Part shown: positions 1 to 64,000 of the stretch, piece after piece
How positions within the stretch are numbered: the stretch's first letter is position 1
Layout of the letters: every line of letters starts with the position of its first letter
Source of the DNA: Pseudomonas helvetica
GTDB lineage: Bacteria > Pseudomonadota > Gammaproteobacteria > Pseudomonadales > Pseudomonadaceae
Assembly (NCBI RefSeq): GCF_039908645.1
Contig: NZ_CP150917.1
Location: forward strand, 1,460,501-1,524,500
Direction of reading: 5' to 3'
DNA length: 64,000 bases
Notes under the pieces: model-generated
What the model was told of the DNA's origin: nothing
What the model saw: the letters and a program-made list of their open reading frames with translations, nothing else
Database searches by the model: none
Position numbers and translations under genes: made by a program

Positions 1-69
1 ATCCCTAAGAACCAATTTGAGCGCTTGTGGCGCGAAATTATTGTTACTGGAAAGCGTAAGACCTTATGA
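1..69 (+). CDS. Possible 3' end of a gene entering from the left edge
   Basis: Frame 1 is open from the window edge to a TGA at 67-69 and would encode 22 residues (IPKNQFERLWREI and so on). The stretch is too short to recognise a family, and 22 stop-free codons can occur by chance. It is recorded because no other explanation for these bases is visible. Confidence 0.25.
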   Translation: MPKNQFERLWREIIVTGKRKTL

Positions 70-181
70 AAGTAGCAATTTCCGAACCAGAGTCCCGAAC
101 AAGCGTTTTAAAAGATGATTCAAGACACGTCTGGAGAGGAATCGTGCCCAAAAACGGGCGTGAACAAATTGCCGCACCAAA

Positions 182-233
182 GTAGAGCGATCGGTGGCGA
201 GGAAGCAAGCTCCCTCGTCACTGATCGCTCTAC
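182..233. repeat. REP-like palindrome, possible terminator of the acylase gene
   Basis: An 11-base arm (gtagagcgatc, 182-192) is repeated inverted at 223-233. The interior carries the 'gcgagg...cctcg' core seen in the other REP elements of the window. It begins three bases beyond the stop codon of the minus-strand acylase gene, so it could also end that transcript. Confidence 0.7.
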
Positions 234-236
234 GTG

Positions 237-2687
237 TTACTTGCCTGGCACCAGGGTCAGCCGCGTTTTGCCATATATCTTGTCGAAGTTCTGCGGTTGC
301 ATCGGCAAGCTCATGTATTGGCCTTTGAGCCACGGGTCGATGCTGTCGATATAGTTCGGGCTGGCCGGGTTACCGGATTGGCCGGTGCCGCTCTGACCCA
401 TCAGCGGTTCGGCCTGGCCGAAGTCGACAATGAAACGCATGGCCGGCACCCGCGTCACGTTGAAGTCCTGCCCCCACGTGTACGCGGCAGCATTCAATGT
501 GGTGTGGTCACCTCCGGCTGACATGGCGCCACGCACGGTCTGGCCTCGGCTGTTTTTCCATTCGTAGTGGTGCAGTTTGCCCCACTGCCAGGCTTTGTGG
601 TCGGCACCCATCTGGCTCTCGCCGGCGGTAATGGCCGCGGCCAGGCTACGGGCGAGAATGGTCGGTTTGTCTTCTTTTTGCTGCGTGCGCAGGTCATCCC
701 AGAACGGGCTGTCTTCGCGACCCAGCAAATGGTCGGCCTGGGCCGAGTAGGACAATTTGCCGTTGGCGACGAAGGCTTTCCACGTCGGGCTGGACTCTGG
801 GCCGAGCTCGTCGAGGAAGATCTGCTTCATGCTTTCTTGCAGGAACAGTTCATAGATCGCTGCGTCGGCCGAAGTCGGGCTGAGCTTGCCGTCGAACGCC
901 ATCAAGCGGTTGTAAGCTTCACGCGCTTTGCCGGCTTCGGCAGCAGGCAGTGCGTCGATCGCCTGTTTCAGCGGCTGGGACATGCCCGGGGCTTCAAACA
1001 TCTTTTTCAGTTTGGCGGCGAACAGCGTGGTCTGGTCGTACTGCATCGCGATCATGCTGCGGCTGTCGTGCTTGCCGGCAGCCGCCAGCTCGGCGATGCG
1101 CTCGCCACGCTCGGGCGCGGCCCAGGAGTTGGACAGCTGCATGCCGTAACCATGAGGGATGACCCGCTGGTTGGCGGTGCCGACCCAGCCTTGGGCCGGG
1201 TCCTGGTCATAAGGGTGGAGCATCGGGTCGGCGTAACCGTCCCAGTCGTAACGACCTTCCCAGCCCGGCGATGGCAACAGGCCTTCACCTTCGCGACGGT
1301 TCGGGAAGCGCCCGGTGACTTGCCAGCCGATGTGGCTGGCGTCGGCGAATACCATGTTCAGCGCGATAGCGCGGATTTCACGGCTGGCGTCCGAGGCTTT
1401 CTCTGCGCTCTGTGCACGGGACAAGTCGAAGAAGGCATCGAGGCTCTTGTCGTCGGTAAAGTTCGGCATCTGCAATGCCAGACCGAAACCATTGCCCAGT
1501 GCAGTGCCTTGAGCGCTATTGAGCAGCGGGCCGTGACGGGTTTCGTACACGGCTTCGCGAATCGGCCGCTGGCCTTTGACGAAGTAGGTTTCGTTGCGAA
1601 CCGTCACCGGTTGCCATTTGCCTGAGACTTCGTAGCTCAGGCCATTGCCTTGACGCTTGAGCTTTTCAAGGAACAGGTCCTGGTTATCGCCCATGACCGC
1701 GGTCATGCTCCACGCCACTTTACCGTTGAAACCGGCGAGGACCATCGGCAGGCCGGCAACGGAAACCCCGGCCGCCTGGTACTTCGGCGAACGGATCTGT
1801 ACGTAGTTCCACAGCGACGGCACGCCAATCGGGAATTGGCTGTCGCTGGCCAGCAGGCTCTTGCCGCTGCGACTGCGCTGCGGGGCAATTGCCCAGTTGC
1901 TCGACGCCGTGGCGCCGAGCAAATTCAATGCAGACAACTGGTCGCCGGCTTTACTGAGTTCGCTCAGGCCCGGGATCGTGCCGTTGAGCTTCACGCCTTT
2001 AAGCTTTTCAGCTTCGGCGAGTGGCAGCTTTTCGTCCGGATACGACGGCAACAGCCACGGGAGTTTGTCTGTCGTGACGGTTTGCGCCATCACCAGCGAA
2101 GCGATTTCTTGCGGCAGGTTGGCTGACTGGCTGAAGTTCAGCAGGCAAAAAATCAGCGCCGAATCTTCCGGCTTCCAGTATTCAGGTTTGTAGCCAGTGG
2201 CGGCCAGGTCCGACGGCAGCTTGTCGCGATAGCGGAACAGGTAGGCGTTGACCCCGCGTGCATAGACTTCAAAGAAGCGTTGCAGGCGCGGAGAGGAGGC
2301 CTTGTAGAGCTCGTCGGCACTTTTCTTCAGATTGACTGCGCGCATGTAGCGGTCAGCGTCGAGCATCTCTGCGCCGGACATCTCCGACAGGCGACCCTGG
2401 GCCAGCAGGCGCATGGTGACCATCTGGGTGATGCGATCACTGGCGTGTACGTAGCCGAGGGTGAACAGTGCGTCGTGGAAGGTGTTGCTTTCGATCAGCG
2501 GCACGCCCATGGCATTGCGCCGCACTGAAACGTTCTGCGCCAACCCTTTGAGCGGCTGCACGCCTGCGGTGGGTGGCAGGCTGTCCTGGGCATTCCAGGT
2601 CTGGCAACCGGTGAGGCTGAGCACACTGGCCACTGCTGCGGCAACGCCGAACCGGGGAAGAAAAGATGTAAAGGCTGGCGAGGCCAT
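237..2687 (-). CDS. Penicillin acylase family lipoprotein (Ntn-hydrolase)
   Basis: A protein of 816 residues, typical in length for an unprocessed penicillin/acyl-homoserine-lactone acylase. The N-terminus is a lipoprotein signal with lipobox LTGC (Cys28). The sequence [11 protein letters not shown] places a Ser at about residue 263 directly before Asn-Trp, matching the autocatalytic cleavage site where the beta chain begins with the nucleophile Ser in this family. The alpha chain would be roughly residues 29-262 and the beta chain 263-816. A GGAG Shine-Dalgarno precedes the ATG. The family hydrolyses amide bonds of beta-lactams, N-acyl-homoserine lactones or related acyl amides, and the substrate here is unknown. 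Membrane anchoring differs from the soluble periplasmic PvdQ type. Confidence 0.88.
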
Positions 2688-23044: not shown

Positions 23045-23557
23045 TTAGCGTTTGGCGGCGTAACGTTTGGCGATCAGGTGATCGATCGATAGCATGCCCG
23101 GACCTCTGGCCATCAGGTACAGCAAAACGGCCGCCCAGGTGCCGTGAGTCGGGTAGGCGTCCGGGTAGACAAAGGTCTGAATGGTCAGCGTCATCCCCAG
23201 TAGCGCCAGGGCCGAAAAACGTGTAGCGAAGCCGACGAGGATCAGCATCGGGAAGAAATGCTCGGCGAAGGCCGCCATGTGCGCCGCCAGTTCCGGGGAC
23301 AGCAGCGGCACATGGTATTCGCTTTGGAACAACGGAATGGTCGAGTCCGCGAGGCGCGGAATACCGAGCTGGAAGGTGCCGTCGAGCAGGTCGATGGCCA
23401 GGCCCTCGACCTTGGTTTGCCCGGACTTCCAGAACACCGCGGCAATGGAGAAACGTGCAACGAAGGCGATCAGGCTGTGGGGGATTTTCTCGAACAGTTC
23501 GATGATCCGTTCGATCAAGTGGGTGATTGCGTTCGGGTGTTCGGTGCGGGTGTTCAT
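23045..23557 (-). CDS. DoxX-family membrane protein, last gene of the bufferin operon
   Basis: 170 residues from the ATG at 23557 with four hydrophobic segments; SIAAVFWKSGQTKVEG and HFFPMLILVGFATRFSALAL are DoxX-type. Its start overlaps the DUF2063 stop by four bases (ATGA). DoxX proteins close many gig/buf operons; a redox or quinone-linked role has been suggested for the family, but its part in bufferin biology is not established. Confidence 0.85.
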   Translation of the reverse strand: MNTRTEHPNAITHLIERIIELFEKIPHSLIAFVARFSIAAVFWKSGQTKVEGLAIDLLDGTFQLGIPRLADSTIPLFQSEYHVPLLSPELAAHMAAFAEHFFPMLILVGFATRFSALALLGMTLTIQTFVYPDAYPTHGTWAAVLLYLMARGPGMLSIDHLIAKRYAAKR

Positions 23558-24327
23558 GGCGATACCTTGTCGTGTTGCAAGTGGATGATGGCGTTGTGGC
23601 CGATCAGCAGCGCCAGGCACTGACTCGGGTCGAACGCCGGTGCGGCGTTCAGGGCATCGGCGACCGCTTGCCCCAGAGGGTGGTTGTTTTGCAGGCTGTG
23701 GATGAAGGTCGCAGTGCCGACATCGATCGCAAAGACCTCGACCTCCAGGCCATTGCGCAGCACCAGTGCGTTTTGCGGGTGATACGGCTCAAGGTTCCGG
23801 GGCGGTATGTCAGTCTGGTGGGCAGCCCATAGCGCAACGGTGGCGTACGGCGAACTCAGCGTGAACGTTGAGGGATGCAGATGAATATGTAGCTGTGCGA
23901 GCGCTTCGGGAGCAGCCAGCGCAGCAGCAATCCGTGCAGGCTCGACGGCATTGGCATCCGCTGCGTGATAGGCCATTACCCGCAAGCGTTCCAGGCGCGC
24001 AACATCTGCGAGGTACGGCACTGAAGCGGCCGGCGCAAAGTGCTCGATGAAACTGGCGAAGTCACTGCCGTAGTCGTTGATCAGCGCACTGGTCGGTGGG
24101 AAGTCCCGCACATAAAATCGGGCCATGGCCCGGAAGAACTCATCACCGACCAACTGTGAAACCACCGGATAGCTGTCGGTCAAGGCGTTGATCAACGAGC
24201 TCTGCACGTTGTTGCGGTACACCGCGAAGCGGCTCTCCGGGTCTGCGCCGTTGGCGCTGAACAAACCGTCAGGGCAGGGCCGTCGAGGATCAAGCAGGGC
24301 AGCGGCGAAATCGGCTTGAGTGCTCAT
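23554..24327 (-). CDS. bufC: DUF2063 partner protein of the MNIO enzyme (BufC type)
   Basis: 257 residues from the ATG at 24327. Residues 1-100 form the DUF2063 putative DNA-binding-like domain ([37 protein letters not shown]), and the C-terminal half resembles the RRE-like part seen in BufC proteins. In characterised bufferin systems this protein presents the precursor to the DUF692 enzyme. The gene overlaps the start of DoxX and the stop of the DUF692 gene by four bases each, so stoichiometry is probably coupled. Confidence 0.88.
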
Positions 24328-25217
24328 CGGCGAATCCCGGTGCAACCCAGCAATTCATCGGCTTGACGGGCCTCGGCGAGCAGCACGGAAAATGCCGGCA
24401 CCTGATTGTCGCGCTCAATCAGCGTGGCCACCGGCCCGACGCGCTCAAGAACTTGCGTATACAGCGTCCACACAGCGTTATCGATGGGGGCACCGTGATC
24501 GTCGATCAGCAGGCGATCGCCGAGGCTGTCAGTGTCTTCGGCAAATCCGGCCAGATGGATCTCGCCCACGGCATGCAACGGCAGTGCGTCGATGTAGGCC
24601 AAGGGATCGCGCTGATGATTGATGCAAGAGACGTAGACGTTGTTCACATCCAGCAGCAAGCCGCAGCCGGTGCGGCGAATGACTTCAGAGATGAAGCTGG
24701 TTTCTTCCATGCTGGAGCGCTGGAACTGCAAGTAAGTCGCCGGGTTTTCCAGCAGCATGGGGCGTTTCAGATGCTGCTGGACCTGGTCGATATGCTCGCA
24801 GACACGCTGCAGTGTCGACTCGTTATAGGCCAATGGAAGCAGGTCATTGAGAAACACCGGGCCGTGGCTCGACCAGGCCAGGTGTTCGGAAAAGGATTGG
24901 GGTTGATAGCGTTCGATCAGTTTGGCGAGCCGGGCAAGGTGCTCGGAGTTCAGCGGGCCTTCGCCGCCGATCGATAGACCGACGCCATGCAGCGACAGCG
25001 GATACTGCTCGCGGATCAAACCCAGGTAATGATGAAACGGGCCGCCGGCCACCATATAGTTTTCGGCGTGGACTTCGAAGAAACCGATGTCCGGGCGAGT
25101 ATCGAGTACTGCGCCAAAGTGCTCGGTCTTGAGCCCCAGCCCCGCGCGGGGCGGGAGCTCGGACGCCAATGCCTGAGTGTGAGGATGTACGTTGTGCAGC
25201 GCTGAAGTGGTCATCAT
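24324..25217 (-). CDS. bufB: DUF692 multinuclear iron enzyme (BufB type, MNIO)
   Basis: 297 residues; tandem ATGs at 25217 and 25214 are both usable. TIM-barrel of the DUF692/MNIO family with its ligand-bearing segments: [52 protein letters not shown] and LIERDN. In bufferin systems the enzyme uses a di- or tri-iron centre and O2 to turn precursor Cys residues into 5-thiooxazoles. The precursor gene lies directly upstream, 22 bases away. Confidence 0.92.
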
Positions 25218-25239
25218 CAACACTCAGGCAGAGGAGGGA

Positions 25240-25548
25240 TTACGACTTGGCTTTGTAGGCGGCCATTTGACCGAAGCCGGTCGGTGAGGTCGGGCTGGCG
25301 GTCTTCTCGCAAGTGCCTTTTGGCACCAGTTTGAAGTGGTTGCTCTCGAAGTCGATTTTCGAGGTGCCCGCGCAGGTAGTGCCTGCACCTGCGGCGCAAT
25401 CGTTCTTGCCTTTCATAGCGACGCCAAAGCATTTTTCCATGTCAGTGGCTGCGGCGTGGGCAGTGGTCGGCAGAGCCGCGATGCTCAGGGCGGAACCCAA
25501 GGCCAGGGCGAGGGCGGCGGCGGACAGGGTGCGAGTGGTAGCAGTCAT
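25240..25548 (-). CDS. bufA: Bufferin precursor (DUF2282, BufA1 type)
   Basis: 102 residues from the ATG at 25548, with GGAGA upstream. A Sec signal peptide ends near TAHA|AAT (about residue 33), unusual for a RiPP precursor but characteristic of bufferins. The mature part has four Cys (40, 51, 59, 80) in the conserved DUF2282 pattern [27 protein letters not shown]. Known bufferins are modified on Cys in the cytoplasm, exported, and chelate copper in the periplasm. Promoter elements must lie in the 25549-25667 region; a gtaagc/gcttac inverted repeat sits there. Confidence 0.92.
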
Positions 25549-59570: not shown

Positions 59571-60833
59571 TTAGAGCAGGCTGATCGGATAGCTGACGAT
59601 CAGGCGGTTTTCGTCGAACTCGTTGTTGCTGTAGTCCCGACGCATGGTCGAGTTGCGCCACCTGACGTTGAGGTTTTTCAGGCTGCCACTTTGCACGGTG
59701 TAGCCGATTTCGCTCTCGCGGCCCCATTCCTTGCCGTCGGTGACGGTCCCGGTGTGCACATTAGAACCGCTGATGTAGCGGTTCATCAGGGTCAGACCGG
59801 GAATGCCGAGGGCAGCGAAGTTGTAGTCGTGGCGCAGTTGCCAGGATTTCTCCCGGGCGTTGTCGTAGCTCGAGTTGTAACTGTCGTTGGCCAGCGTCCC
59901 GCCGCTGGTGCCATTGACCCGCATCCAGGCATTGTCGCCGGTGAGTTTCTGCAAGCCGACATAGAAGGTGTTGCCGCCATATTTGGCCGAGAACAGCCCG
60001 GACCAGGTTTTGTTATCGAGGTCGCCGGCCCGTGCGCTGCCATCTTCCTTGCCATAGAAGAAGCCAAGGTTGGCGCCCAGCGTCCAGTCGCCCAGTGGCT
60101 GGGTGTGGACCAGGTTGATAAATTGCTGGCTGTAGATGTCCTTGAGCTGGGCATTCCACACCCCGATTTGCGTGCGCTTGTCGTTGAAGCTGTATTCGGC
60201 GCCTTCAAAGTTGAAACGGTCGGAGGTGAAGGCGGGTTTGCCGGTCATCGACATGTCACTCATGCTGCTGTCGTCACGCGGGCTGTTAGCGCGCATCTGA
60301 CCGCCGTAGAGCGTCAGGCCGTCGATTTCCTTCGAGGTGATCTGGCCACCGCGAAACGTTTGCGGCAACGAACGCCCATCGTCCGAACGCAGGATCGGCA
60401 ACACCGGCATCCACTCACCGACTTTCAACTCGGTCTTGGAAAGCTTCGCCTTGAACGCCACACCCAGACGTCCGAAGTTATCGGCGGGGCGACCATCGTG
60501 GTCCAGCGGCAGCAGCTGCGTCCCGCCGGTGCCGCGTCCGCCATCGAGCTTCACCGAGTACAGGCCCAATACGTCCATGCCGAAACCGACGGTGCCCTGG
60601 GTGAACCCGGATTTGGCATCGAGGATGAAGCTTTGCGTCCATTCTGCCGCTGTTCCTTGCGCCTTGGTCGGGTTGGTGAAATTGCGGTTGAAGTAGAAGT
60701 TGCGCAGGTTGAGGTTGGCCTGGGCGCCGTCTAGAAAGCCTGACTCTTCGGCTAGCGCCGGGAGGGCTGCGCTGACCAGTGCGGTGGTCAATAGAGTCGG
60801 CAAAAGCTGTTTTGCACAGGTGGAAGGCTTCAT
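59571..60833 (-). CDS. OprD-family outer-membrane porin
   Basis: 420 residues, the OprD/Opd length. Sec signal peptide ending PALAEES, then SGFLDGAQANLNLRNFYFNR, the usual start of OprD beta-strands; ends LIVSYPISLL. Substrate-specific diffusion channel, of the OpdK/PhaK aromatic-acid branch or a basic amino acid branch, which sequence inspection cannot decide. The neighbouring pca genes favour an aromatic-acid substrate, by inference. Confidence 0.9.
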   Translation of the reverse strand: MKPSTCAKQLLPTLLTTALVSAALPALAEESGFLDGAQANLNLRNFYFNRNFTNPTKAQGTAAEWTQSFILDAKSGFTQGTVGFGMDVLGLYSVKLDGGRGTGGTQLLPLDHDGRPADNFGRLGVAFKAKLSKTELKVGEWMPVLPILRSDDGRSLPQTFRGGQITSKEIDGLTLYGGQMRANSPRDDSSMSDMSMTGKPAFTSDRFNFEGAEYSFNDKRTQIGVWNAQLKDIYSQQFINLVHTQPLGDWTLGANLGFFYGKEDGSARAGDLDNKTWSGLFSAKYGGNTFYVGLQKLTGDNAWMRVNGTSGGTLANDSYNSSYDNAREKSWQLRHDYNFAALGIPGLTLMNRYISGSNVHTGTVTDGKEWGRESEIGYTVQSGSLKNLNVRWRNSTMRRDYSNNEFDENRLIVSYPISLL

Positions 60834-61259
60834 GAAGTCGGGTCTCTCTAATTGTTAGGGATGAAGCAGGACGCAGCCGCAACCAAGGGGTTGCAGACAA
60901 AAATTCGAATTCGGGTCAACGAACGGGAGAGATCAGCCGGAGCGGGTAGGGTGTGCAGTCATGGTGCCGGACCTGTTGTTATTGGTTCTTGTAGGTGGGG
61001 GAATGGTGCGGGGGATCAAGGGCGGGATTCAATCGGGCGTACCGGGTTTTGGGCGATAATCGAACACAAATCGACGCCTGTCGGATCACCAGCGGTATGA
61101 AGCATTGTTAATTAAATCCCATAGTTATTCGGGGCAATAATGGGTGTCTGCCTGTGTGTTCTATTAATGACGCATTGCTGTCCAGTGGCTATTAAATAGA
61201 AGGGCCTATTACTTTGGTTGTAAGCGCTTTCTTACAGTTCTTGTTGTCATTAAACGACT

Positions 61260-61308
61260 ATCGATAATCGCCAGTTAACCTTAAGAAACGGTGTTATCGA
61301 TTATCGTG
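61260..61308. promoter_or_regulatory. Pair of PcaR-box-like sites
   Basis: atcgataatcgcc (61260-61272) and gttatcgattatcgtg (61293-61308) hold the 9-base core cgataatcg and its inverse cgattatcg, 27 bases apart. The same nonamer forms the core of the perfect inverted repeat before pcaR. It could serve the porin on the left, the RiPP operon on the right, or both. Confidence 0.5.
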
Positions 61309-61357
61309 AAACGGTTTAAAGGGAGCCGTGGGGATGGCTGGAAAAGAGCAGTGGTCT

Positions 61358-61366
61358 TGCTATATT
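61358..61366 (+). promoter_or_regulatory. Candidate extended -10 promoter of the RiPP operon
   Basis: tgctatatt fits TGn-TATAAT in five of six -10 positions plus the extended TG. The -35 region 17 bases upstream is poor (ctggaa). It would give a leader of about 80 bases before the precursor ATG. Confidence 0.4.
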
Positions 61367-61452
61367 CAAAGTCCCCAGGACGGGCGAGGGAAAGTTACAT
61401 GCTTCGTCAGGGGTGCATTTTTCGTCGTGCCGAAATAACAAGGAGAAGTACC

Positions 61453-61710
61453 ATGAGCAATAAAGTCAATCAGCAAACCTTGGCCACGGTTGTTGGACGT
61501 GCGGTGCTGGATCCGGGGTTTGCCGATGCACTTCACAATGATCCTGCCTCGGCAGCTAAAAATATTGGTGTGCATCTAAGTGCTGATGAAATTGCGGCGG
61601 TTAAAGGCATTGATGCTGCAAAACTGTCGGCTGCCTCTGCCGGTATTCGAAATAATCTGGGGACGCGTGCCATATTTGATACCCAGCAACAGCAAGCGCG
61701 CATGGATTAA
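61453..61710 (+). CDS. Putative RiPP precursor (NHLP/Os1348-like leader)
   Basis: 85 residues from the ATG at 61453, with AGGAGA eight bases upstream. Residues 8-56 (LATVVGRAVLDPGFADALHN, ADEIAAVKGID) match in pattern the helical leader of NHLP-clan RiPP precursors (RAVxDPxFxxxLxxDP...LTxxExxALxxLD). The rest (SAASAGIRNNLGTRAIFDTQ then QQQARMD) has no Cys and ends in an Asp. It is followed by the genes of an acetyltransferase, an HEXXH protein and a DUF692 enzyme, so a modified peptide is expected. Which residues are changed is unknown. No GG cleavage site is obvious. Confidence 0.72.
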   Translation: MSNKVNQQTLATVVGRAVLDPGFADALHNDPASAAKNIGVHLSADEIAAVKGIDAAKLSAASAGIRNNLGTRAIFDTQQQQARMD

Positions 61711-61721
61711 CGGCCGGTGAT

Positions 61722-61774
61722 GCCATTTGGCGTACCCCGAAAGGTGGGTCTTTCACGCAGGTACGCCGAATGGC
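61722..61774 (+). terminator. Long stem-loop between precursor and enzyme genes
   Basis: gccatttggcgtacc (61722-61736) pairs with ggtacgccgaatggc (61760-61774) in 14 of 15 positions plus one G-T; the 23-base loop holds a second small stem gaaag/ctttc. It starts 11 bases after the precursor stop codon. A partial terminator or RNA-processing site giving more precursor than enzyme is the likely purpose. Confidence 0.75.
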
Positions 61775-61823
61775 TTTATGAAGTGTCATGAGGCACAGCG
61801 GTCGAGCGCGGAGTGAATGACTC

Positions 61824-62300
61824 ATGCCTGTCACCTTGGCTCCAATGGATAACGCGGACTTTGCAACGTTCGCCGAAAGAGCCGTTGCTGAATATGGTGA
61901 CGGTATGGTCGTCTCGGGTGAGTGGGCCCATGAGGAGGCCTCGCAAAGGGCACGCAGTGTCTTCGAGCAGTTGTTGCCGCAAGGGCGACTGACTGAAAAA
62001 AACCAACTCTGGGTGATCAAGGATCAGGAGCGTCGTATTGGCGAGTTGTGGGTCGCCGAGCGACACACCGGTGCCGGCAAGAGTGCCTTCATCCTGGATA
62101 TCTACATTGACCCTGGAGAGCGCCGCCAGGGTTATGCGAAACAATCACTGTTGGCCCTCGAGTCATGGGCACGCCAGGCGGGATGCGAAGAAGTGCGACT
62201 GCACGTCTTTGGTCGCAACGATGCGGCGCGTCGTCTTTATGAACAATCAGGGTATGGCATCGCCAGTCTGACGATGGCGAAGCCGTTGCCGCCTACCTAA
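61824..62300 (+). CDS. GNAT-family N-acetyltransferase
   Basis: 158 residues. Acetyl-CoA motif A: FILDIYIDPGERRQGYAKQS (Arg/Gln-x-x-Gly-x-Ala loop), and C-terminal VFGRNDAARRLYEQSGYG. It lies 15 bases before the HEXXH gene, so same operon. In a RiPP context it could acetylate the product as tailoring or self-protection, which is inference. Confidence 0.88.
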   Translation: MPVTLAPMDNADFATFAERAVAEYGDGMVVSGEWAHEEASQRARSVFEQLLPQGRLTEKNQLWVIKDQERRIGELWVAERHTGAGKSAFILDIYIDPGERRQGYAKQSLLALESWARQAGCEEVRLHVFGRNDAARRLYEQSGYGIASLTMAKPLPPT

Positions 62301-62314
62301 GGGAAGGTTGAAAA

Positions 62315-63475
62315 ATGGAAATCGGGAACAGTGGTCTGCGTGAGCTATCCGATGACGAGTTGTTTCAGGGCACGACATTCCTGCCGGACACGGATCCTTC
62401 ACGATTTGACGTATTGCTGGAACGTGTCAGTCGAAATCGCTACACAAGTTTTGTTGCGCTGTACACCGAACTTTTTCAACTGTTTCCCAATGCTCCGCAG
62501 TTGGCGGAGTTTTTCGAGCAGGCATTCAATCTTATTGTGCCGCCGACCCGCGAGCAGCGCGTGATTATTAATGATCCGGTGTTTCAAGTGTGGAGTGTAT
62601 TGACGGCTCATTATGCCAACCTGGTTATCACGAAAAAGGCGGCGAATACCGATGAGTTAGAGCGCATGTTGATCGAGTTCCCACTGATGCTGGCGCGGGT
62701 GAAAAAGAACGACAGTGTTCACATGAATGATTATTGCCCGCCGGTGTATCGTTTTAATGTTGATCCGTTGGTGATGAGAGTGGCACCGCCCAGTTATGAG
62801 TTTCCGGAAGATGAAGCAACCCGTAAACAATTGGAACGTCATGGTCATTCCGTGAGTTTCTTTTGCGATGTGGTGAATATCGCGCTGTTGCGGATAGAAC
62901 ACTCGTGGCCCGCCTGTCGCGAGCAGTTTAGAAAACTGGTCAAGTCCATATGTTATTTGCCCGATGGTTCATTTCGAAGCTGCTCGGCTTCGCGCTTCAC
63001 CGGGATCATCCTCATCTCGAACCGGGATGATTCGATTCTCGACCTGGAAGAGTCGCTGGTGCATGAGGCCACTCATCAGTTGCTCTACAACATTGTCGAA
63101 GTGTGCCCGGTCGTCAGGGATGAGACCTCGCGGGAGGCATTGTTCACCTTGCCGTGGTCGGGGCAGAAGCGTGACCTCTATGGTTATTTTCATGCGTTTT
63201 TCGTGTACGTCGCGTTGGTCAAATACCTGGAGCGGGTTCGTTCGCGCTCGTCCCATGAACTGCAGCGGGCACAAAAACGCCTGGTGTTCATCCTGCAAGG
63301 CTTGATCAAGGCGTTACCGGATTTCGAAGCGTGCGCGGATTTCACCCCTCAGGGCCGCCAACTGCTGGAAAACCTGATCAAAGAAGTCAGGGCGCTGGAA
63401 ACTCAACACGCCGCGTTGTTGGCGATATCGGGCGCTGCGGCGGGGGCTAAACGCATGCTGGGCCTGACCGGTTGA
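62315..63475 (+). CDS. HEXXH-motif putative peptide-modification protein
   Basis: 386 residues. The motif HEATH at 250-254 (LEESLVHEATHQLLYNIVEV) and later YFHAFFVYVALVKY (His293, possible third ligand) fit the family named for HEXXH peptide-modifying proteins in RiPP clusters (TIGR04267, by my recollection). Mostly helical, cytoplasmic, no membrane segment. AGGGAAGG precedes the ATG. Activity in this family is largely unproven; some members act as metalloenzymes on the precursor. The MNIO gene starts 16 bases later. Confidence 0.78.
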   Translation: MEIGNSGLRELSDDELFQGTTFLPDTDPSRFDVLLERVSRNRYTSFVALYTELFQLFPNAPQLAEFFEQAFNLIVPPTREQRVIINDPVFQVWSVLTAHYANLVITKKAANTDELERMLIEFPLMLARVKKNDSVHMNDYCPPVYRFNVDPLVMRVAPPSYEFPEDEATRKQLERHGHSVSFFCDVVNIALLRIEHSWPACREQFRKLVKSICYLPDGSFRSCSASRFTGIILISNRDDSILDLEESLVHEATHQLLYNIVEVCPVVRDETSREALFTLPWSGQKRDLYGYFHAFFVYVALVKYLERVRSRSSHELQRAQKRLVFILQGLIKALPDFEACADFTPQGRQLLENLIKEVRALETQHAALLAISGAAAGAKRMLGLTG

Positions 63476-63491
63476 CGCCAGGGAGGCGGAC

Positions 63492-64000
63492 ATGGCGATG
63501 TTTGATGCTTCGCAATTTCCGGAGGCCGGCGTCGGGCTGGAATACCATTTGCCACGGCACACGCCTCAGGATGAGTTATCGGAGGAGGGGCTCGACCCGA
63601 CCGTCGAACGGATTCTCGCCGAGGGCTTGCCACATTTTGATTACGTCGAGTTTCAGCCGACGCACTGCATTCTGGAACCGCGTCTGCTTGAGCTCGGTGC
63701 GCAAGTACCGAGCTTGCTGCATTCTTCCAGTTTGTCCTTGGGCAGTGTGGGCATCGCGATGGACCGCGAGTTTCTGAAAATGACTCGGCGGCTGTGCGAG
63801 AAGACCCGCTCGCCCTGGCTGGCCGAGCATATTTCCTGGTCGCGGTTTCACGGAGGCGACACTCAGCATTTCATTCTGCCGACCCTGGCCCAAGAGGTGG
63901 CTGACACGGTGGTGGCCAACGCCATTGAATTGCGTGACCTCACGGCAACGCTGCTGGTACTGGAAAACGCGCCGCGGTTGTTTTCGTTGCAGGATACACA
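63492..64000 (+). CDS. DUF692-family MNIO enzyme, truncated by window end
   Basis: Open from ATG 63492 (GGGAGGCGGAC upstream) to the last base, 169 residues seen of an expected 280-300. Family landmarks: VGLEYHLP, FDYVEFQPTHC (Glu53), SLLHSSSLSLGSVG (His77), WLAEHISWS (Glu112, His113) and LVLENAPRLF (Glu158), in the same order as in the bufB-type enzyme at 24.3 kb. The Glu at FDYVEF, His at LLHSS and Glu/His at AEHISW correspond to iron ligands. It should oxidise the precursor at the Asp, Cys or another residue. Divergent enough from the bufB product to be a separate subfamily. Confidence 0.88.
   Translation, partial: MAMFDASQFPEAGVGLEYHLPRHTPQDELSEEGLDPTVERILAEGLPHFDYVEFQPTHCILEPRLLELGAQVPSLLHSSSLSLGSVGIAMDREFLKMTRRLCEKTRSPWLAEHISWSRFHGGDTQHFILPTLAQEVADTVVANAIELRDLTATLLVLENAPRLFSLQDT

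Follow-up and report, generated by a model that had tools for sequence, protein, structure and literature searches.

A stretch of 64,000 nucleotides of the Pseudomonas helvetica genome (hereafter the window; G000:C1:1460501-1524500, + strand, in a single-contig genome of 6.44 Mb) ends in four genes, here named A to D, that make up a putative locus for a ribosomally synthesized and post-translationally modified peptide (RiPP). Gene A (61453-61710) encodes a precursor of 85 residues; gene B (61824-62300) a GNAT-family N-acetyltransferase of 158 amino acids; gene C (62315-63475) an alpha-ketoglutarate/Fe(II) HEXXH peptide hydroxylase of 386 amino acids; and gene D (63492-65465 in window-equivalent coordinates, 657 codons) a fusion of a multinuclear non-heme iron-dependent oxidative enzyme (MNIO) with a SagB/ThcOx-type oxidase. 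All four lie on the + strand, with gaps of 113, 14 and 16 bases, and the positions of their open reading frames (ORFs) match those given by an earlier analysis of the same DNA (hereafter the original prediction). Its proposal of a RiPP locus, in which an NHLP/Os1348-type precursor is accompanied by a GNAT, an HEXXH protein and an MNIO, is borne out by matches above the cut-offs for all four families.

Gene A scores 74.8 bits on NF038399 ('Os1348 family NHLP clan'; cut-off 40) and has a single match in the PDB, 6lk7 (Os1348 of Pseudomonas sp. Os17; residues 1-85, E 5.8e-31); its tail, AIFDTQQQQARMD, is identical to that of Os1348. Gene B, between the precursor and the HEXXH gene, scores 61.8 bits on PF00583 (cut-off 20.7), and gene C 113 bits on TIGR04267 ('aKG-HExxH-type peptide beta-hydroxylase'; cut-off 40). 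The metal ligands of protein C are intact, HEATH being located at 250-254 and a histidine at 293; H250, H254 and H293 are the likely iron ligands, the third being assigned from conservation. The protein is 100% identical to its counterpart in Pseudomonas fluorescens FW300-N2E3. As for gene D, the original prediction had called it a DUF692/MNIO gene, which is right for the MNIO domain (PF05114, 96.4 bits, cut-off 25) and incomplete for the rest: the second half of the same 657-amino-acid frame, hidden by the window end, is a SagB-family dehydrogenase (TIGR03605, 112.9 bits, cut-off 78.4; TIGR04511 is also listed for it). Only the first 169 of the 657 codons fall within the window (63492..64000), and the whole gene is at L004:4493-6466. 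In a structural model of a fusion 96% identical to D (locus L007), MNIO structures are matched over 10..276 and ThcOx over 293..657.

When the four proteins were scanned against Pfam and NCBIfam, no DUF2063-type partner was found among them, nor was a YcaO cyclodehydratase, which in clusters for TOMM/linear azole peptides accompanies the SagB-type dehydrogenase, the remaining genome not having been searched for one. A bufferin BufB-type maturase identity was tried for D and rejected (NF050167, 85.4 bits for a cut-off of 310), and the 85-residue precursor contains no cysteine, whereas precursors of the bufferin type, which are Sec-exported, are Cys-rich.

Published relatives and conservation of the cluster

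The original prediction was aware of no description of this combination of genes. The cluster type appears in the genetic study PMC7726476 (2020), in PMC12452194 (2025) and in the biochemical study PMC12636437 (2025); judged by its sequence, the window cluster is an orthologue of the known OS3/pfl/pos family and not a new cluster type. Cluster OS3 (Os1348-Os1351) of Pseudomonas sp. Os17 has the same four-gene arrangement, upstream of emhABC (PMC7726476). The window cluster shares with pos/OS3 the gene order, the chromosomal site, the Os1348 leader, the identical tail, the HEXXH enzyme and the MNIO-nitroreductase fusion, and differs from it in sequence, with identities of 67% for the precursor, 60% for the GNAT, 58% for C and 65% for D. 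The pfl cluster of P. fluorescens CH267 likewise comprises a precursor, a GNAT, an HEXXH enzyme and an MNIO-nitroreductase fusion, and its precursor has a Gln run followed by ARMD; the PflA tail, AIFDQQQQIQARMD, has five Gln where that of the window has four, and the published PflA tail itself is carried by one of our loci (L041).

Three further likenesses concern the enzymes. The MNIO landscape of 2025 lists a pair of HEXXH and MNIO/nitroreductase genes as 'adjamnio-III - MNIO/nitroreductase' (PMC12452194); as in the window, an HEXXH protein of 267-386 residues stands beside the fusion, but the accessible text of that survey identifies no precursor gene, whereas here the precursor is gene A. 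Gene C has the TIGR04267 domain and resembles the ChlH-type aKG-HEXXH hydroxylases (PDB 8s5f) in the HEXXH motif and surrounding sequence, although the match is limited to 223-355 (E 2e-7). Finally, the nitrilobacillin pes cluster also combines an Asp-hydroxylating MNIO with an aKG-HEXXH hydroxylase, but there the hydroxylase acts on proline, and a C-terminal nitrile is formed by an asparagine-synthetase-like protein (PMC13060819).

A search with gene C among 398 Pseudomonas genomes (E<=1e-20) gave 22 matches in 21 genomes. For each of the 21 matches outside the window the neighboring sequence, in two cases shortened by a contig end, was fetched and compared with the window genes, and three types were distinguished. 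Type I, that of the window, occurs in 12 genomes (G000, G108, G183, G079, G355, G083, G220, G347, G061, G325, G377 and G354), with the order A-B-C-D in all 12 and emhC next in 11. Conservation of the precursor frame had been set beforehand as a point on which the proposal could fail. Over 19 type I loci (L039, at the same place as L010, was left out) the frame is conserved, with a median ratio of nonsynonymous to synonymous differences (pN/pS) of 0.265 in 166 of 171 pairs, five pairs with pS <=0.05 having been dropped and a few of the 19 loci being near-copies. Gene C of type I gives a median of 0.388 (15 pairs, 6 loci). Within the tail, F-D is kept in 19/19 loci and ARMD in 18/19. The remaining precursor (L042:12761-13021, - strand) has AQMD for ARMD and QQQNVQ for the Gln run, and represents a natural substrate variant.

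To see whether the cluster extends beyond the genus, 398 genomes sampled across the phylum were searched: gene C was matched in only 2 (E<=1e-10), G000 and G083, each of which belongs to Pseudomonas, and fusion D in 1 of 369 genomes of the class (E<=1e-60), which is the window's own. Fusions 45-51% identical to D exist in the protein database, one of them named Allosphingosinicella. Among 50,697 phage records, tblastn found no match to gene C, and megablast found none to window positions 61453-64000 among 72,556 plasmid records.

Predicted modification of the precursor tail

With a probability of about 0.9, we consider that the locus is an Os1348/pfl/pos orthologue whose enzymes would turn AIFDTQQQQARMD into an oxidized, shortened and amidated tail. 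By orthology with PosA/PflA, the predicted modified stretch is F75-D76-T-QQQQ(78-81)-ARMD(82-85), encoded at 61675..61707 on the + strand. PflC and PosC are alpha-ketoglutarate/Fe(II) hydroxylases that beta-hydroxylate the Gln run and remove ARMD oxidatively, leaving an amide; they modify the full-length precursor without the MNIO protein, and the PflD fusion produces Z-dehydrophenylalanine and 3-hydroxy-Asp (PMC12636437). In the window, the Os1348-type leader (approximately residues 1-70) would bring the tail to the enzymes. Protein C would beta-hydroxylate Gln78-81 with alpha-ketoglutarate and Fe(II), and would next oxidize the alpha-carbon of Ala82, whereupon ARMD would leave and Gln81 would end in an amide, the alpha-carbon route being a proposal of the authors of PMC12636437. 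The SagB-like flavin mononucleotide domain of D would desaturate Phe75 to Z-dehydrophenylalanine, and its MNIO domain would hydroxylate Asp76. These steps of C and D are predicted by analogy, being carried over from the PflC/PosC and PflD results. A protease encoded elsewhere may then remove the leader, and the GNAT may cap the product. With this locus, a family of recent and unusual chemistry gains one more orthologue, and the monoisotopic mass shifts of its precursor can be predicted: -410.21 Da for C alone, and -396.23 Da for C and D together.

The middle region of D looks similar to the N-terminal domain of ThcOx/BmdC oxidases and may hold the leader, taking over the part of a separate MNIO partner. 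In the L007 model this region consists of strands (298-300, 305-308, 312-317 and 322-327) followed by helices (328-338, 343-347 and 358-370), and the alignments of ThcOx and BmdC to the fusion model begin at 293-294, but with a root mean square deviation of 16.4-19.9. ThcOx has domains resembling the RiPP recognition element, a winged-helix fold, at the region that aligns with the middle part of D, which may share this fold. In seven distant fusions the middle region is 21-53% identical to L007, while identity is 47-73% in the MNIO part and 63-77% in the nitroreductase part; the faster evolution of the middle region fits leader recognition and proves nothing.

Several observations weigh against this scheme. 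Neither Pfam nor NCBIfam gives a match to the middle region of D at E<=10; the region folds poorly when modelled in isolation (predicted local distance difference test score of 46.7), and in a profile search of the PDB it returned only two distinct sequences, both named retro-aldolase, at a chance-level E of about 0.5. PosD was inactive and PflB without activity in Escherichia coli (PMC12636437), so that the reactions of D, as well as leader removal and capping, may differ here. Moreover, killing of Bacillus subtilis was weaker in Os17 deletions of genes A and D and not in those of B or C (PMC7726476), a poor fit to a simple pathway that requires every enzyme for an antibiotic.

Another scheme goes back to the original prediction: the four genes would form a new cluster with an unreported chemistry, and the HEXXH protein would stand in for the usual DUF2063-type protein as partner of the MNIO, or be a peptidase for it. 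The four genes do lack such a partner, and PflC hydrolyses a truncated substrate, which is a peptidase activity (PMC12636437). The stand-in role, however, is at odds with the action of the orthologues as hydroxylases on full-length precursor without the MNIO, and the window cluster agrees with the published ones in tail and gene order; we regard this scheme as highly improbable.

A different possibility is that the leader is kept and the modified full-length precursor, a small dimeric protein like Os1348, is itself the functional product, with a regulatory or structural role. Full-length Os1348 was present in whole-cell lysates, the protein as crystallized is predicted to be a stable dimer, and Takeuchi et al. 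did not detect its secretion (PMC7726476); in addition, the pfl/pos clusters showed no protease gene (PMC12636437). On the other hand, an antibody test might miss a small released tail, previously characterized RiPPs all lose a leader or a follower (an argument of PMC12636437), and a GNAT match is conserved in 12/12 type I genomes. We find a full-length product unlikely.

Chromosomal setting, export and expression

Past position 64000, to which the original prediction had pointed for further genes, gene D runs to 65465 and is followed on the opposite strand by orthologues of the cluster OS3 neighbors annotated emhC, emhB and emhA (the EmhABC efflux pump), with emhR beyond. A small ORF between gene D and emhC, which the window's genome has in addition to what is found in pos/OS3, has no NCBIfam match and presumably belongs to DUF6124. 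In locus L009, the stretch between D and emhC (L009:12728-13182) repeats part of the end of each of these two genes, a sign of local duplication.

The position of the cluster raises the question of whether it is functionally tied to EmhABC as its exporter. The juxtaposition with emhC in 11/12 type I clusters speaks for such a tie, as does the report that an emhB-type mutant of Os17 accumulates the precursor and that a plasmid copy of the cluster fails to restore activity (PMC7726476). The counterevidence comes from P. batumici (G079, loci L010 and L039, with the same precursor as L010), the sole type I genome with the cluster away from emhC. Its complete cluster adjoins a 235-residue ORF that follows TatABC-like ORFs (names assigned by eye and not from a library), and on the 86.7 kb contig carrying it nothing matches emhB at E<=1e-200; the best emhB match (87%) is on another contig. 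Furthermore, emhB matches of 78-96% were obtained in 6/6 genomes tested, among them G001, G002 and G005, which are without the cluster. A cluster existing away from emhABC argues against the link in cis to export that was proposed for Os17, and a functional tie to the pump appears unlikely to us; P. batumici represents one natural relocation, so that transport in trans may still take place.

Expression of the cluster is likely under Gac/Rsm control by analogy with Os17, where the OS3 precursor is controlled by GacA (PMC7726476). The Shine-Dalgarno sequence of gene A, AAGGAG (61440..61445, + strand, -13 to -8 relative to the precursor start), is a candidate RsmA/E (ANGGAN) site; AAGGAG at -13 occurs in 19/19 type I loci and in 0/6 type II loci, and is equally a canonical ribosome-binding site. 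A promoter/terminator scan of 60830-61900 gave no excess over shuffled sequences (1 vs 1.3; 0 vs 1.0), and no tRNA was found in L004. Measured in 1-kb windows, GC content falls from 0.58-0.59 just upstream of the cluster to 0.51-0.55 across its 5' half.

Related enzymes in other pseudomonads and further MNIO genes

The other two types have fewer of the genes. Type II consists of two-gene units, precursor and HEXXH enzyme, in six genomes (G070, G141, G169, G006, G334 and, as a second copy, G079; loci L047, L048 and L050-L053). Its precursors are 41.7-46.4% and its C proteins 55-57% identical to those of the window; no match to B (0/6 loci) or D was found, and lexA is adjacent in 6/6 units. In L047, NF038399 gives the precursor 54 bits (cut-off 40), TIGR04267 gives C 107.9 bits (cut-off 40) and TIGR00498 gives LexA 183.3 bits (cut-off 110.95). 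The core is FDQQQVRTD or similar, with tails such as FDQQQ-VRTD or FDQQR-IRMD for the FDTQQQQ-ARMD of the window. Where the cleaved Ala would stand, four units have Val and one has Ile; the sixth, L052, keeps Ala and has lost Phe. With Val or Ile at the cut position, the type II enzyme would hydroxylate without cutting and yield a different product: the replacement is the natural counterpart of the published PosA A91V mutant, which was hydroxylated and not cleaved (PMC12636437). Against this non-cutting reading, constraint on the type II precursor (median pN/pS 0.558, 15/15 pairs) is weaker than on type I, and some type II precursors may thus be decaying; the type II C gene is well kept (median 0.236, 10 pairs from 5 of 6 loci).

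Type III is gene C alone, in four genomes (G044, G395, G307 and G037), 47-50% identical to that of the window and beside lexA in 3/4. In all four enzymes HEXXH has become REXXH (R at 250) and His293 is Gln, so that two of the three likely iron ligands are replaced. The same double change is present in 8 of the 87 proteins of our protein search, six of which are named (two P. gingeri, two P. asplenii, P. agarici and P. vanderleydeniana); as three of the eight are identical to L054, L056 and L057 and a fourth is near L055, they cannot be counted independently of these genomes. The genes (L054-L057) are open frames under purifying selection (median pN/pS 0.349, 6 pairs). The two proteins tested score 106.1 and 112.4 bits on TIGR04267, above the cut-off, and an annotation pipeline would consequently call them hydroxylases. 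When the four genomes were searched with a profile built from ten precursors of types I and II, 3/4 gave no match at E<=1; the one match in G307 (E 0.35) falls within an open frame of 1010 residues, at a great distance from the enzyme, and was taken as chance. Directly after the REXXH gene of L055 is an ORF of 1,874 residues (L055:8233-13857) with no NCBIfam match, whose equivalent in L057 has 1,955 residues.

A tree was built from 43 rows, of which 13 are loci and the other 30 were taken from the 87 proteins. Types II and III come out as sister groups, each recovered in 100% of bootstrap trees, next to Pseudomonas type I; three proteins assigned to group I by guess (P0118, P0120 and P0128) fall outside the Pseudomonas type I clade. 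We tentatively propose, with the odds slightly against us, a second Os1348-family RiPP pathway, the non-cutting type II, and a precursor-less REXXH descendant that would now be a non-oxygenase with another job. The REXXH lineage makes it possible to study what becomes of a likely iron oxygenase after the loss of metal ligands and substrate. The papers cited here do not mention a cluster away from emhABC, and no description of types II and III was found in open-licence PMC papers, a scope outside which lie Figures S1 and S2 (related clusters and precursors) of PMC12636437.

The P. helvetica genome carries MNIO genes other than D. A separate bufferin-type cluster lies within the window (23045-25548, - strand), with an MNIO (24324-25223, - strand) that scores 390.3 bits on NF050167 (BufB; cut-off 310). 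It is accompanied by an HvfC-like partner (53 bits) and an HvfX-like protein (37 bits), both under their own cut-offs, and by a Cys-containing precursor with a weak BufA2 match (22.8 bits, cut-off 60). A third MNIO gene of the genome is at G000:C1:4677539-4678327.

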